DNA of 22,403 bases from contig JAPPEF010000120.1 in the NCBI GenBank assembly GCA_028875335.1, positions 1 to 22,403 on the forward strand, in the 5' to 3' direction. Origin of the DNA: Gemmatimonadota bacterium (GTDB lineage Bacteria > Latescibacterota > UBA2968 > UBA8231). The position numbers were made by a program, and so were the translations under genes. Every line of letters begins with the position of its first letter. The stretch's first letter is position 1. The notes beneath the pieces were generated by a model. It did not search any database and had not been told where the DNA came from. It saw only the letters and a program-made list of their open reading frames with translations. Below, one piece after another: positions 12,440 through 17,602 of this stretch.

Positions 12440-13531
12440 TCAGACATCCATCTTCGGCGGTCCATCGTAGCCAATGCTCTGCCACCCGGCGACGTCGCCG
12501 CCCTTGAGGCGATAGGGATGCGGATACAGCTTGAGCGTGCGGTCCGCAAAAGGCAGGGACACCCGCTCGTGTTCCCGATGGGCCGAGCGCACTAAGGCGA
12601 TGGCCACTTCGAGCGAGTGGCGGTAGTCGTCGCCGCTGCTATACGGCTCAGTGCCGTCCCGATGGGCGCGCATTAGACGCTCGATCGTATAGGTGAAGGC
12701 GTCGGCCGCTGGCTGATCCAAAAAGTCGGGATACACCGGAGAAGCCGCCGCGCCGATTCCCTCGATCAGCACGGGCCGTGGACGCGCCAAAAAGACCTGC
12801 CCGCGCTCGCCACTGACCGAGATAAAGGTCGGCACACGGCCATCCGGCTCAGGTGCGACAACCTCGCAGACGATGCCGCCGCTCAGTCCCAAGCGGCCGT
12901 ACGCGGGTACATCCCCCTCCTCTATAGGCGTACCTTCCGCCACGTACCCCGGCACCGCCGGCAAGGTGTACCCTTCCACCCACTCCACATCCATCCCAGT
13001 GAGGATGCGCAAAGCCGCAATCTGCACGCAACCGCCACCCGACACCTCGGTCGGCAACCCACCTGGGATCGCCGCCGCAGTCAACCGACCAATGCGTCCC
13101 TGCCGCACCCACTCGACCACCTCGGGCATATACGGCGTCGCCCATCCGGCCTGAGCGCAACCGAATAACGTGCCGTGTTCCCGGCAGATGCGGATCATTT
13201 CGTCGGCCTCGTGCAGTTCGTGAGAAATCGGCTTCTCGCAGGAAACCACCCGCACGCCAGCGCGAGCGCAGGTAGTAACGCAAGGATAGTTCTGCCCCAC
13301 CGGAACCACGGCGGAGACGATATCGGGCACTTCGGTCGCCAAGAGGTCATCGAGGTCGTCGTACACCTTCTCCACGCCGTAGCGCTGGGCGATAGCATCC
13401 CGCCGCTCTCTAGCGCGATCGACGAGGCCGACAATCTCACAGTTGGGATGAGCGGCGTACGCGCGCGTGTAATAGCGTCCCCACGTGCCGGCCGCACCGA
13501 CGACGGCCACTCGGTATTGTTCATTAGTCAT
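12440..13531 (-). CDS. Gfo/Idh/MocA family NAD(P)-dependent oxidoreductase
   Basis: A 363-residue protein with the canonical family layout. The Rossmann fold begins Val-Ala-Val-Val-Gly12-Ala-Ala-Gly-Thr-Trp-Gly18, with an acidic-end strand Leu-Val-Asp near 38. The catalytic motif Cys-Glu99-Lys100-Pro101 is intact, unlike in the other family member in this window. The C-terminal alpha/beta domain follows Gly-Arg-Ile-Gly-Arg-Leu near 146. These enzymes oxidise or reduce sugars, inositols or their amino derivatives; the substrate is not visible here. AGGAGG lies six bases before the ATG. It starts divergently from the tyrS leader, and its ribosome-binding region overlaps the -35 region of the tyrS promoter, so the two promoters may interfere. 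Confidence 0.9.
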   Translation of the reverse strand: MTNEQYRVAVVGAAGTWGRYYTRAYAAHPNCEIVGLVDRARERRDAIAQRYGVEKVYDDLDDLLATEVPDIVSAVVPVGQNYPCVTTCARAGVRVVSCEKPISHELHEADEMIRICREHGTLFGCAQAGWATPYMPEVVEWVRQGRIGRLTAAAIPGGLPTEVSGGGCVQIAALRILTGMDVEWVEGYTLPAVPGYVAEGTPIEEGDVPAYGRLGLSGGIVCEVVAPEPDGRVPTFISVSGERGQVFLARPRPVLIEGIGAAASPVYPDFLDQPAADAFTYTIERLMRAHRDGTEPYSSGDDYRHSLEVAIALVRSAHREHERVSLPFADRTLKLYPHPYRLKGGDVAGWQSIGYDGPPKMDV

Positions 13532-13545
13532 GGTTAGCCTCCTAA

Positions 13546-13574
13546 TTGACGAGAATAGAGGTCGCAGTTATATT
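13546..13574 (+). promoter_or_regulatory. tyrS promoter
   Basis: TTGACG (13546-13551), a 17-bp spacer and TATATT (13569-13574) give a near-consensus sigma-70 promoter. Transcription is predicted to start at about 13581, leaving a very short lead before the GGAG (13582-13585) of the leader peptide. Confidence 0.7.
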
Positions 13575-13593
13575 TTTGCGCGGAGAATGAATG

Positions 13594-13653
13594 ATGCAAA
13601 TCCTACGCGCCGATCGCCACTATTACTATACCCCGCTTCATAGACAGGGGTAG
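13594..13653 (+). CDS. tyrS leader peptide, 19 residues with three consecutive Tyr codons
   Basis: The frame reads MQILRADRHYYYTPLHRQG and then TAG. GGAG at 13582-13585 lies eight bases before the ATG, a normal spacing. Codons 10-12 (13621-13629) are TAT TAC TAT, a Tyr run placed directly before the first pairing segment of the attenuator, and the gene downstream is tyrosyl-tRNA synthetase. Two nearby ATGs (13587 and 13591) are in other frames and badly spaced. The peptide itself probably has no function; its translation rate would be the sensor. Confidence comes from the coincidence of codon identity, position and target gene. Confidence 0.82.
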   Translation: MQILRADRHYYYTPLHRQG

Positions 13654-13685
13654 CACGTCCGCTTTATCGTCTCAACCGCGTTTAC

Positions 13686-13712
13686 AAGCCCCTGTAATCA
13701 GGGGCTTTTTTT
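13686..13712 (+). terminator. Rho-independent terminator in the tyrS leader
   Basis: A perfect 9-bp stem, AAGCCCCTG/CAGGGGCTT, with a four-base TAAT loop (13695-13698) runs into a tract of seven T residues (13706-13712), 24 bases before the tyrS ATG. No other plus-strand gene lies within 4 kb upstream, so its natural role is to stop leader transcription conditionally. Confidence 0.88.
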
Positions 13713-13736
13713 ATGCCCATACCAGAAGGAAATCTG

Positions 13737-14984
13737 ATGAACATCATACCCGATCTTGAATTTCGCGGCTTGATCTACCAAGTCACCGATCTCGACGGCC
13801 TCGCCGAGCGCCTCGCCGCCGGTCCAATCGTGCTCTACAATGGCTTCGACCCAACCGCCGACAGCCTGACGGTGGGCAACCTCGTGCCGATCCTGCTCCT
13901 GCGCCGCTTCCAGCTCGCCGGCCACAAAGTCATCGCCTTGGCTGGCGGCGGCACCGGCCTGATCGGCGATCCCGGCGGCAAGACCGAGGAGCGCCAGCTC
14001 AATGCCACCGACGTCGTGGCCGAGTGGACGCAGCAGGTCAGAGCACAGCTAGAGCGCTTCCTCGAATTCGACGGCCCCAATCCCGCGATTATGGTCGATA
14101 ATCACGACTGGCTCAGCCAACTGGCGGCCATCGACTTTATGCGCGACGTCGGCAAGCACTTTCCCGTCCCCTACATGCTGGCCAAGGACTCGGTCGCCTC
14201 GCGCCTCGAAACGGGCATTTCCTACACCGAGTTCAGCTACATGGCACTACAGGCGTACGACTTCTTGGTCCTCAACGAAAAATACGGCTGCGAGTTGCAG
14301 ACCGGCGGCTCTGACCAGTGGGGCAATATCACCGCTGGCACCGATCTGATCCGCCGCTCCGCTGGCATCCGGGCCTTTGGCCTGACTTGCCCGCTAGTAA
14401 CCAAAGCAGACGGCACCAAATTCGGCAAGACCGAGGCCGGCACAGTCTGGCTCGACGCCGCGAAGACCTCGGCCTACCAGTTTTACCAGTTCTGGATCAA
14501 CGCCGAGGACCAGAAGGTCATCGACCACCTGAAAACGTACACCTTCTTGGAGCAGGACGCGATCCTCCAGCTCGCCGAGACCGTCCGCGACCAACCCGAA
14601 CGGCGAGAGGCCCAGCGCACCCTCGCCACCGAGGCAACAACCATTGTGCATGGAGCCGACGCTGCTCGCCGAGCCGAACGCATCTCGCACGCGCTCTTTT
14701 ACGGGGAGTTTCAAGACCTATCCGAGGAAGAAATCCTCGAAGGCTTTGACGACGTGCCAACGCACGCTATGGGTCAGGAGGAATTAGGATTGGTCGATCT
14801 GCTCGTCGCGGCCGGCGTCTCGCCCTCCAAGCGCCAAGCCCGCCAAGACGTGCAAAACGGCTCGATCTACATCAACGGCGAGCGCTGCACGGACATGGCG
14901 CGGAGCATGCGGTGCCGAGAGGGACTACACGGCAAGTACTTGATCGTGCGCCGAGGGAAGAAGCAGTACACCCTCGTCTGCTAG
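13737..14984 (+). CDS. tyrS: Tyrosyl-tRNA synthetase (TyrRS)
   Basis: The class I synthetase charges tRNA-Tyr in the cytoplasm. From the ATG at 13737 the protein has 415 residues and begins like other bacterial TyrRS (Leu-x-x-Arg-Gly-Leu-Ile-Tyr-Gln-Val-Thr). AGAAGGA (13724-13730) is six bases upstream. The in-frame ATG at 13713 abuts the terminator T-tract and is rejected. Tyr34 and Gly-Phe-Asp-Pro-Thr-Ala-Asp are present, as are Gly-Gly-Ser-Asp-Gln-Trp-Gly-Asn (190-197) and the KMSKS-type Lys-Phe-Gly-Lys-Thr (228-232). An S4 RNA-binding domain forms the C-terminus (about 350-415). The HIGH motif is atypical, Thr45-Val-Gly-Asn48. Transcription is preceded by a Tyr-codon attenuator. The gene ends at the base next to the stop codon of the convergent hepT-like gene. 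Confidence 0.96.
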   Translation: MNIIPDLEFRGLIYQVTDLDGLAERLAAGPIVLYNGFDPTADSLTVGNLVPILLLRRFQLAGHKVIALAGGGTGLIGDPGGKTEERQLNATDVVAEWTQQVRAQLERFLEFDGPNPAIMVDNHDWLSQLAAIDFMRDVGKHFPVPYMLAKDSVASRLETGISYTEFSYMALQAYDFLVLNEKYGCELQTGGSDQWGNITAGTDLIRRSAGIRAFGLTCPLVTKADGTKFGKTEAGTVWLDAAKTSAYQFYQFWINAEDQKVIDHLKTYTFLEQDAILQLAETVRDQPERREAQRTLATEATTIVHGADAARRAERISHALFYGEFQDLSEEEILEGFDDVPTHAMGQEELGLVDLLVAAGVSPSKRQARQDVQNGSIYINGERCTDMARSMRCREGLHGKYLIVRRGKKQYTLVC

Positions 14985-15449
14985 TTACTCAGGCTGCAAG
15001 AGCGCTAAGAATCGCTCAAAGTCCTGGATAAAATCGCGCTGGATGCACACGGCTTTGGCCGCCAAATTCGCCACCTTGTCGGGATCCAAATCCGCGGTGT
15101 ATGCGTGGCGGAACAGATGGCGGAATCGCCGCAATTCATCTAGGTCGGAAGCGGTCTCTGTCGACAGAAGTGCCGGGCGGATGCCTTGGATTTCTAGCTG
15201 CATCCGCCTAATCATATCCGCGTGATACCTTGCTTCGTCGATTTGGTTCTCAAAGAATCGCGCTACTTCCTCAAACAACTGCTCAAACGCGCCATAGAGG
15301 TTGTGGAGCTGGTACCCCATGCTGTCCACTCCTTCGGCACTATGGGCAAACGTGCCTAGACGTTCCTCAATGCGACCGCCGATGCGACTGATGTCCCGGA
15401 CACGCGCTCGCAACCCCGCTTCGAGAACCGCGAAGGCCCCTTTATCCAT
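14985..15449 (-). CDS. hepT: HEPN-domain HepT-type toxin
   Basis: A 154-residue, all-helical protein with the HEPN signature Arg110-x4-His115-x-Tyr117 (Arg-His-Leu-Phe-Arg-His-Ala-Tyr), the R-x4-H-x-Y motif of HepT ribonucleases. In characterised pairs the partner nucleotidyltransferase silences the toxin by adding AMP units to the motif Tyr. The ATG overlaps the end of the nucleotidyltransferase gene by 8 bp (ATGGATAA), so translation is coupled. GGAG and AAGG lie upstream. The protein is somewhat longer than compact HepT toxins. Its stop touches the tyrS stop with no intergenic base, so read-through transcripts from either side would be antisense to the other gene. Confidence 0.82.
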   Translation of the reverse strand: MDKGAFAVLEAGLRARVRDISRIGGRIEERLGTFAHSAEGVDSMGYQLHNLYGAFEQLFEEVARFFENQIDEARYHADMIRRMQLEIQGIRPALLSTETASDLDELRRFRHLFRHAYTADLDPDKVANLAAKAVCIQRDFIQDFERFLALLQPE

Positions 15450-15780
15450 AAACCTTAACTCCGGACTGGGTAAAGGATTGAGGGGAAGGATGCCGGTCGA
15501 GGTCGATTACGTCCACCTCTCGGCCGGTAGCGTCCTCCAGCGCTTTCATTATTTCGAGCACAACAGGCGAGCAACCTGCCACAGCCACGTCAATGTCGGA
15601 CGACTCTCGCCAAGAATCGGGCGACCGCAGCGAGCCCACAATGTACGCGGCCTCGATTCCGAGAGGTTCTCGTAGCTCCAACAGAGTGCGACGAACACAG
15701 TCGAACAACTCGACTTGCTCTGCCGCTAGCCGCTGGCGTCGCGCTCTTATGGCCTCGTCGAGGATGCTGGTATCGAACAT
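15442..15780 (-). CDS. mntA: MntA-type nucleotidyltransferase antitoxin
   Basis: A 112-residue minimal nucleotidyltransferase. The motif Gly49-Ser50 then Ser-Ser61-Asp62-Ile-Asp64 gives the GS-x(10+)-DxD signature, with a third acidic residue in Glu-Val-Asp90-Val-Ile-Asp. Established MntA antitoxins AMPylate the Tyr of HepT. The ATG at 15780 is preferred: it begins just after the guaA stop (16-bp gap) and gives a compact NTase N-terminus, whereas the open frame upstream overlaps guaA. The ribosome site is weak, which suggests coupling to guaA translation. The order antitoxin then toxin, with overlap, is the usual one. Confidence 0.84.
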   Translation of the reverse strand: MFDTSILDEAIRARRQRLAAEQVELFDCVRRTLLELREPLGIEAAYIVGSLRSPDSWRESSDIDVAVAGCSPVVLEIMKALEDATGREVDVIDLDRHPSPQSFTQSGVKVYG

Positions 15781-15796
15781 ACTTTCGCCGTCTGGC

Positions 15797-17602
15797 TCAC
15801 TCCCACTCCACCGTGCCCGGCGGCTTGTGGGTAATGTCGTAGAAGACCGCCTCAATGCCCGCTAGCGCTAACAGCCGCTCGCACACGTCGTCCAAAAACG
15901 CCTGCGGCAACGGGCAAAAGCGCGCGGTCATAAAGTCGGAAGTCGCAATCGGCCGCAGCACCACGCTTTCTTGTACCCCATCCGACGACAGTGGCAAAAG
16001 CACCGTCGGCATCTGGGTCACTTCCTCCATCAGCCCGTGGCGCTCCAACGCCTCCATGCTGATGGCATCGGCCCGGCGCAGTAGATCGAGCCGGTCGCGG
16101 GTTAAATACCCCGCTTTGATGTTTTGCTGCGGCCGCGGTGTCGGCCCCAGTAGGTAAATCACCCGATTGATCGACGGGAAGTTATTGGTCAGCTCGGTAG
16201 AAAGGGCCTCCAGCGTCTTCCACTCTCTCTGGCCGGTGACCACCGCTGGATGAGCGTAGGTCCGAGAATCGCCCTGCACGCCGACGCTGCGCAATGGCAG
16301 CACATCGAGCGCCAGCCCGAATGTCGCCGCCACCTTTTGCGCCTCGGCGACCATCTCAAGCGCCAACCCGGAGTCAGCGTCCTCTGCGTCTGGCCCATCG
16401 CTGCACAAAGCCCGCACCGCCAGCCCTGGCCCTGGGAATGGATGCCGCCAGACCAAGTGGTGCGGCAAGCCGAGCGTCTCGCCCAAGGTGCGCGCCTCGT
16501 CCTTGTAGAGTTGGTCCAACGGCTCGACAACCTTGCCCTCGGCCAAAAGCTGATCGATGACGCCGACGCGGTTGTGGTGCGTCTTGATAACCGCTGCGTT
16601 TTCCGTGCCGCCGGACTCAATCGTATCCGTGTAGAGCGTCCCCTGGCCCAACAGCCACTCGTCCGGGTCCAGCGCCAGCGCCGCCAGCGCCCGGTCGCGG
16701 ACGCGGATGAACTCCTCGCCAATCCGCCGCCGCTTTTCCTCGGGATCGGCAATCCCCGCCGTAGCGGCGAGGAATTCCGCGCTGGCATCGACGACTTCCA
16801 GATTGTGCAGCCCCGCTCCCTTCATCAGCCGCTCGACCATCGCAGTCTCGCCCTCGCGCATAAAGCCGTTGTCAATGTGCAAGCCCAGCACCCGCTCCGC
16901 ACCCAAGGCGCGGTTGAGCAAAAGAAACGCCACCGACGAATCGACTCCGCCGCTGACGAACAAAAAGACGTTGCGCCCCTTCGCCTGCTCTTGGAGCCGC
17001 TCTATCGTCTCTTCGGTGTAGCGCTCCATCGTCCAGTTCCGCTCTGCGCCACACAGCGCGGCGAAGTTATCGAGGATCTCCATGCCCCGAACAGTGTGCG
17101 TCACTTCTGGATGGAACTGCAAGCCGTATATCTTGCGCTCGCCGTCGCCCATCGCCGCCACCGGGCAGTCCTCGGTCGCGCCCAAGACGGCAAACCCAGG
17201 TGGCAGAGCTGCAACGTGGTCGCGATGGCTCATCCACACCCGCTCGCGCTCGTCCAATCCTGCTAGCACCCCCTCTGCCTTGTGGACGTGCAGATAGGCC
17301 GCGCCAAACTCATGGGTCTCCCCCATCTCGACTTGGCCGCCCAAGCGATGGCAGAGCAGTTGGTGGCCATAGCACAAACCCAGCATCGGCTTGCCCATCG
17401 CCAAAATCTCGGGATTATACGTCGGGGCTTCCGGGTCATAGACGCTGGCCGGTCCACCCGACAGAATCAGCCCGTCGGCGTCTTGCAAATCGGCAACCGC
17501 AGTCTCTGGCGAGCGAATCTCAGCATGGACGCGAAGGCGGCGAAGGCGGTTGGCAATCAGGTGGGCGTACTGCCCGCCAAAGTCGAGGACGACGATGCTC
17601 AA
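15797..17602 (-). CDS. guaA: GMP synthase (glutamine-hydrolysing), long form with two dimerisation subdomains
   Basis: The enzyme makes GMP from XMP, ATP and glutamine. The class I amidotransferase domain (1-185) has Cys77 (Gly-Leu-Cys-Tyr-Gly-His) with His164 and Glu166. The ATP pyrophosphatase domain has the P-loop Ser-Gly-Gly-Val-Asp-Ser-Ser (217-223). At 601 residues it is about 75 longer than E. coli GuaA. The extra length is a second C-terminal subdomain: the first (about 395-490) carries Arg-Ser-Val-Gly-Val-Gln-Gly-Asp-Ser-Arg-Thr-Tyr, and the second (about 491-601) ends Lys-Pro-Pro-Gly-Thr-Val-Glu-Trp-Glu. This D1/D2 layout matches the human enzyme. The start codon is TTG (17602-17600), with AGGTG upstream inside the Cache gene, whose stop is only 3 bp away. 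mntA and hepT follow in the same direction. Confidence 0.96.
   Translation of the reverse strand: MSIVVLDFGGQYAHLIANRLRRLRVHAEIRSPETAVADLQDADGLILSGGPASVYDPEAPTYNPEILAMGKPMLGLCYGHQLLCHRLGGQVEMGETHEFGAAYLHVHKAEGVLAGLDERERVWMSHRDHVAALPPGFAVLGATEDCPVAAMGDGERKIYGLQFHPEVTHTVRGMEILDNFAALCGAERNWTMERYTEETIERLQEQAKGRNVFLFVSGGVDSSVAFLLLNRALGAERVLGLHIDNGFMREGETAMVERLMKGAGLHNLEVVDASAEFLAATAGIADPEEKRRRIGEEFIRVRDRALAALALDPDEWLLGQGTLYTDTIESGGTENAAVIKTHHNRVGVIDQLLAEGKVVEPLDQLYKDEARTLGETLGLPHHLVWRHPFPGPGLAVRALCSDGPDAEDADSGLALEMVAEAQKVAATFGLALDVLPLRSVGVQGDSRTYAHPAVVTGQREWKTLEALSTELTNNFPSINRVIYLLGPTPRPQQNIKAGYLTRDRLDLLRRADAISMEALERHGLMEEVTQMPTVLLPLSSDGVQESVVLRPIATSDFMTARFCPLPQAFLDDVCERLLALAGIEAVFYDITHKPPGTVEWE

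Follow-up and report, generated by a model that had tools for sequence, protein, structure and literature searches.

How is expression of the tyrosyl-tRNA synthetase gene, tyrS, adjusted in a bacterial phylum known from uncultured genomes, and can a ribosome translating a short upstream open reading frame (ORF) do the sensing? Two kinds of RNA leader provide the background to this question. The T-box responds to the charging state of tRNA and can regulate tyrS through termination; it binds uncharged tRNA directly and involves no translated ORF. The pheST operon has a leader peptide, PheM. Within the window, by which we mean the whole 22,403-nucleotide stretch of DNA analysed here, a sequence-only reading had assigned to tyrS a complete trp-type, ribosome-mediated attenuator with a Tyr-Tyr-Tyr leader peptide. 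Here, we describe a computational analysis of this leader and of its relatives. Judged from comparative sequence and RNA folding, the element is very probably a Tyr-tRNA-sensing, ribosome-mediated transcription attenuator of tyrS.

The proposed parts between 13546 and 13739 were all recovered: the promoter, the GGAG, the 19-codon Tyr-Tyr-Tyr ORF, the pairings, the terminator and the tyrS start (Table 1). The gene 5' of the attenuator, a member of the GFO/IDH/MocA family at 12440-13531, is divergent from tyrS, and the terminator at 13686-13712 can therefore act solely on RNA going into tyrS. In the genus alignment of the eight nearest sequences the -35 box is invariant, as are the ribosome site and both arms of the terminator, and the terminator loop varies. 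More widely in the family, TTGAC with a 17- or 18-nt spacing occurs in 19 of 23 tyrS upstream regions. The leader has a second in-frame ATG at 13591 besides that at 13594; the 19-codon length given by the sequence-only reading is supported by a relative (L006) that retains just the ATG equivalent to 13594. An overlapping ORF beginning at 13587 (MNDANPTRR...) was rejected, since two loci, L001 and L002, lack its ATG.

Table 1. Parts of the tyrS leader, with positions in the window.
Feature	Position	Strand	Basis or remark
Promoter, TTGACG-N17-TATATT	13546..13574	+	Read from sequence; scores 10 of 12
-35 box, TTGACG	13546-13551		Followed by 17 nt
-10 box, TATATT	13569-13574
GGAG, ribosome-binding site for leader ORF	13582..13585	+	Sequence; invariant in 8/8 nearest
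Leader peptide ORF, MQILRADRHYYYTPLHRQG and stop	13594..13653	+	ATG 13594, TAG 13651-13653; 19 codons
Tyr control codons, TAT TAC TAT	13621..13629	+	Sequence
Segment 1, UACCCC	13629..13634	+	Pairs with GGGGUA, 13647-13652
Segment 2, ACAGGGG, antiterminator half	13644..13650	+	Pairs with CCCCUGU, 13689-13695, within the terminator 5' arm
Terminator hairpin, 9-bp stem	13686..13707	+	5' arm, segment 3; 3' arm, segment 4
Terminator U tract, T7	13706..13712	+	Sequence
Ribosome-binding site of tyrS, AAGGA	13726..13730	+	Sequence
tyrS, tyrosine--tRNA ligase	13737..14984	+	TIGR00234 equivalog, 392 bits; start backed by homologues

The order of these parts suggests how the leader would work. We infer that RNA polymerase starts near 13581, closely followed by a ribosome translating the leader. 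Under a shortage of Tyr-tRNA(Tyr), this ribosome would stall at the Tyr codons and mask segment 1; segment 2 would then be free to pair with segment 3, no terminator would form and tyrS would be transcribed. With Tyr-tRNA in good supply, the ribosome would go on to the stop codon and mask segment 2, the 3:4 hairpin would form, and transcription would end near 13712.

Conservation was examined in the family of the genome nearest to the window (f1; 25 genomes, 24 with a tyrS match), from which 22 genomes plus the window gave 23 tyrS upstream regions; two genomes in which the tyrS 5' end is missing (G003, G006) and one with no tyrS match (G031) were left out. A second, partial tyrS-like match at a contig end in genome G002 (L117; 58% identity over 77 residues), which has no clear leader and is perhaps contamination of the metagenome-assembled genome (MAG), was also omitted. 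The sequence-only reading had been made to depend on whether homologous leaders lack both the Tyr codons and the alternative pairings. All 23 regions contain a short ORF, chosen by eye, that has one or more Tyr codons and is followed by an intrinsic terminator located between it and tyrS; in each, the terminator 5' arm has a possible pairing partner close to the stop codon, the helices being of unequal quality. At least two Tyr codons are present in 20 of the 23 leaders and a single one in three (L114, L115 and L193), the leader and terminator of L193 lying further upstream, with the ORF at -270. Examples are MQTLRADRYYYYYYTSRPKGG (L006), MMQTLRADRYYPYYTSLHKQG (L007), MTMHTLHVYRYYYYTLSTRGV (L009), MKPIYRYYHLGTSGG (L112), MRTIKRRYRGYAYYSTRGTIFGGRG (L013) and MLRDHRRYRRYVDILPVLTGVRLP (L029). 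The DNA of the window's attenuator has a full-length match in 7 of the 25 genomes, once each and always at tyrS, and a match over 121 nt, also at tyrS, in G007; the remaining matches in the f1 genomes are fragments of at most 36 bases, mostly of the terminator. Across the family the spacing of the attenuator differs greatly.

Because the leaders were picked by eye, a blind automatic rule was written as a check: the ORF had to have 12-30 codons, two Tyr codons within five, and a stop 15-100 nt before a terminator. The rule selected a leader in 19 of the 23 f1 regions, missing L008, L114, L115 and L193. It selected none in three comparison sets: 33 tyrS regions of other families in the phylum, 83 regions upstream of f1 control genes (pheS 18, trpS 22, ilvB 20, hisS 23; L171 and L218, with too little upstream DNA, omitted), and 65 named tyrS loci outside the phylum, chiefly from Bacillota, though 41 of these have a terminator. 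The corresponding rule for the cognate amino acid likewise found nothing in 63 f1 regions upstream of pheS, trpS and hisS. An Ile/Leu/Val version gave one hit in 20 f1 ilvB regions (L205), an Ile/Leu-rich short ORF, MAGILAGNWLRLLGQHWKDSL, 66 nt before a terminator, which may be chance. At pheS, the window's genus has a GC-rich hairpin and T tract (AAGGGGCC...GGCCCTT) between an upstream gene and pheS. It is present at L122-L127, L130 and L147 and lies 165-183 nt ahead of the match to the pheS profile; no Phe leader ORF was found at this hairpin in the genus, and it may be an operon terminator or some other type of attenuator.

In nine representative leaders, one per group, Tyr makes up 26 of 195 residues; in 13 genes of the window the corresponding figure is 209 of 5736 (3.6%), giving an enrichment of about 3.7-fold (binomial p ~1.5e-8); the other two frames of the same leaders contain 1 and 5 Tyr codons in 195. 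Among six leaders of equal length, the variable sites fall 3, 1 and 5 times on the first, second and third codon positions, and the Tyr codons alternate between TAT and TAC alone. Compared with the window, the leaders in L006 and L007 differ in length by whole codons.

These features bear directly on the view that the hairpin either terminates part of transcription constitutively or marks the end of a separate small RNA, with no translation-dependent regulation. That view, which gains from the finding that the window's own predicted switch does not exceed shuffled controls (below), leaves unexplained the Tyr enrichment in one frame, the length differences in whole codons and the fixed placement of the antiterminator helix relative to the stop codon, and we consider it highly unlikely.

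A different challenge to Tyr sensing comes from arginine, which accounts for 35 of the 195 residues (p ~1.5e-7) and is thus about as striking as Tyr. When the blind rule was run for each amino acid over the 23 regions, Tyr and Arg each gave 19, Gly 11, Met 9 and the others at most 6. The signal could accordingly be nascent-peptide arrest at an Arg-Tyr motif, or joint sensing of Arg and Tyr, the Tyr codons being one part of it, and the recurrence of R-Y or R-R-Y together with the three leaders that have one Tyr codon fits such a scheme. Starvation for a codon, however, better fits the members of the window's genus (L001-L007 and the window), in which runs of 2 to 6 Tyr codons stand beside a single Arg, and the CGN codons may stem from base composition or RNA pairing. 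We therefore hold the Arg-Tyr explanation to be distinctly unlikely and retain Tyr-tRNA sensing, of which the Arg enrichment and the single-Tyr leaders remain weak points.

An Arg-Arg-Tyr motif recurs in seven f1 leaders (L013, L014, L029, L114, L115, L116 and L193). In 7 of the 23 regions (L011, L013, L014, L029, L114, L115 and L116) the leader start codon lies exactly 7 nt past a -10-like box, a spacing which suggests that the leader ORF may be leaderless in those seven. A bolder, tentative proposal, which we rate as unlikely, is that f1 contains lineage-specific tyrosine attenuators in which an Arg-Tyr motif, and not merely a Tyr run, sets the stall, one Tyr codon sufficing in some species; in addition, one sub-clade would have a leaderless leader ORF (start codon 7 nt past the -10 box), with the ribosome on the nascent RNA from its first base.

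The regulation proposed above further requires that the RNA have mutually exclusive folds. The minimum free energy structure of the 140-nt leader of the window consists of the 1:2 hairpin and the terminator, with a z-score of -2.31 (4 of 200 shuffles fold as well). All eight pairs of the window's 2:3 helix can form, and the 2:3 and 3:4 helices exclude each other. The 1:2 hairpin has all six pairs in 8/8 genus members, two of which form it partly via G-U, whereas six other aligned rows keep 1 to 4 of the six. Because the hairpin is not conserved across the family, the description as a complete trp-type attenuator suits the window's genus better than the rest. In folds with no ribosome present, segment 3 is mostly free in the window (0.77 unpaired) and 0.12-0.27 unpaired in L008, L009, L013, L111, L113, L115 and L193; since it is mostly paired in those seven loci, protection by 1:2 is missing there.

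In the 23 regions the best 2:3 helix starts 14-36 nt past the last Tyr codon and ends, at the latest, by the third base of the stop codon. The geometric claim of the sequence-only reading, that the helix is sited so that a Tyr-stalled ribosome frees it and a stop-codon ribosome hides it, is borne out by this placement. Folding was also done after removing the RNA covered by or upstream of a ribosome. For a ribosome at the stop codon, segment 3 was then predicted to be unpaired with a probability of 0.54-0.92; for one on the last Tyr codon the probability was 0.12-0.50, the lower of the two values in 23/23. The mean size of this switch is 0.465, compared with a shuffle mean of 0.266 and a highest value of 0.39 in 100 shuffle rounds, a pooled figure that overstates independence because the loci are related. 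Taken singly, just 4 of the 23 loci had at most 5 of 100 shuffles with as large a switch, and the switch in L006 and in L011 is smaller than its shuffle mean; for the window, 23 of 100 shuffles are as large, which is not significant, the shuffling preserving G runs. Additionally, when segments 2 and 3 were swapped among the nine groups, own pairs gave -16.3 and permuted pairs -14.6 kcal/mol, with 637 of 20,000 permutations as good. Shuffles and swaps together give moderate support for the 2:3 pairing. The best 2:3 helix is not in a single register: L012, L029 and L116 differ. The helices of L116 and L012 are built from bases other than the window's G and C runs, and that of L029 has 3 bp; in a 14-row alignment L008 and L009 keep 4 of the window's eight 2:3 pairs. 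The predicted switch is thus supported more by position than by covariation.

A leader of a known class was also considered. No Rfam family matches the window at its gathering score; the top match below threshold in the leader is Phe_leader (RF01859), over the full model at 26.7 bits (E 0.011; gathering score 55). The pheST attenuator represented by this family resembles the present one as a leader-peptide attenuator on an aromatic aminoacyl-tRNA synthetase operon, and differs in having Phe codons and pheST, where Tyr codons and tyrS are found here, and in belonging to a distant phylum. Alternatively, the leader could be a T-box (RF00230), or a terminator-bearing leader that binds some other ligand or a protein, and the short ORF would then be incidental. 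T-boxes do occur at 3 of the 15 tyrS loci of other phyla that were searched. The window leader, unlike these, has no covariance-model match to the T-box at gathering score, nor does a T-box appear among the 22 leader matches up to E 10, and it is the leader ORF that persists across f1. We regard this alternative as extremely improbable, and the Tyr-tRNA-sensing attenuator is again preferred.

Leader-peptide control of single synthetase genes has been described for other amino acids. In the portions of PMC1262725 available, classical attenuators are predicted upstream of trpS and leuS in Streptomyces, pheST is cited, and tyrosine is given as T-box-regulated in other species; these candidates are alike in standing before single synthetase genes and differ in sensing Trp and Leu and in belonging to Actinobacteria. 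In bacilli, His leader peptides are reported before paralogues of hisS (PMC2965389, available in part), again a synthetase gene associated with a T-box elsewhere; they differ in amino acid and in being from Firmicutes; the main text of that article contains neither "tyrS" nor "tyrosyl". No Tyr leader on tyrS is described in the available portions of PMC9413887, PMC1183508, PMC3847290 and PMC4833913, and none was found in the open-access literature searched; the 2010 survey by Lopatovskaya and others (doi 10.1134/S0026893310010164) falls outside that scope, so priority is not proven. The suggestion that the attenuator may be undescribed is plausible, as no Tyr leader on tyrS appeared in the literature searched and no Rfam model matched at gathering score. 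The logic of ribosome-mediated attenuation is known, and, as far as could be seen, the amino acid, the target gene and the phylum are new. The element would extend leader-peptide attenuation to tyrosine and tyrS and to an uncultured phylum. Furthermore, the 22 distinct leaders, with 1 to 6 Tyr codons and with and without a ribosome site, form a natural series for the minimum number of control codons.

The relatives of TyrS suggest where the leader arose. The nearest proteins found, 98% identical, are from MAGs SB0670_bin_29 and SB0661_bin_36 (filed as Gemmatimonadetes bacterium), and the next, 92-97% identical, are filed as Latescibacteria or Latescibacterota; judged by these labels, the window is taken to belong to Latescibacterota. 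In a tree of 36 TyrS rows, 15 of them from f1, f1 forms one clade (99/98) beside family f3 (joint branch 87/66), both lying among sequences from Bacillota, Calditrichota and other groups. At the loci of families f3 and f4 (L016-L025, L174-L178, L187 and L188) a trpF-like gene, its identity checked by profile in L019 and L174, ends shortly before tyrS, and no leader ORF was seen upstream of tyrS in those examined. Since no leader was seen there and all 23 f1 regions carry one, it most likely originated in the f1 line. This distribution suggests another sensor swap on a synthetase gene, with T-boxes in some Bacillota relatives, tyrS placed behind trpF and no leader seen in the sister families, and a leader peptide in f1.

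Just past tyrS, on the minus strand at 14985-15855, adjoin genes for a HepT-like protein (PF20797) and a small Polbeta-type nucleotidyltransferase (PF18765). They are a probable toxin-antitoxin pair, which we take to be HepT/MntA.
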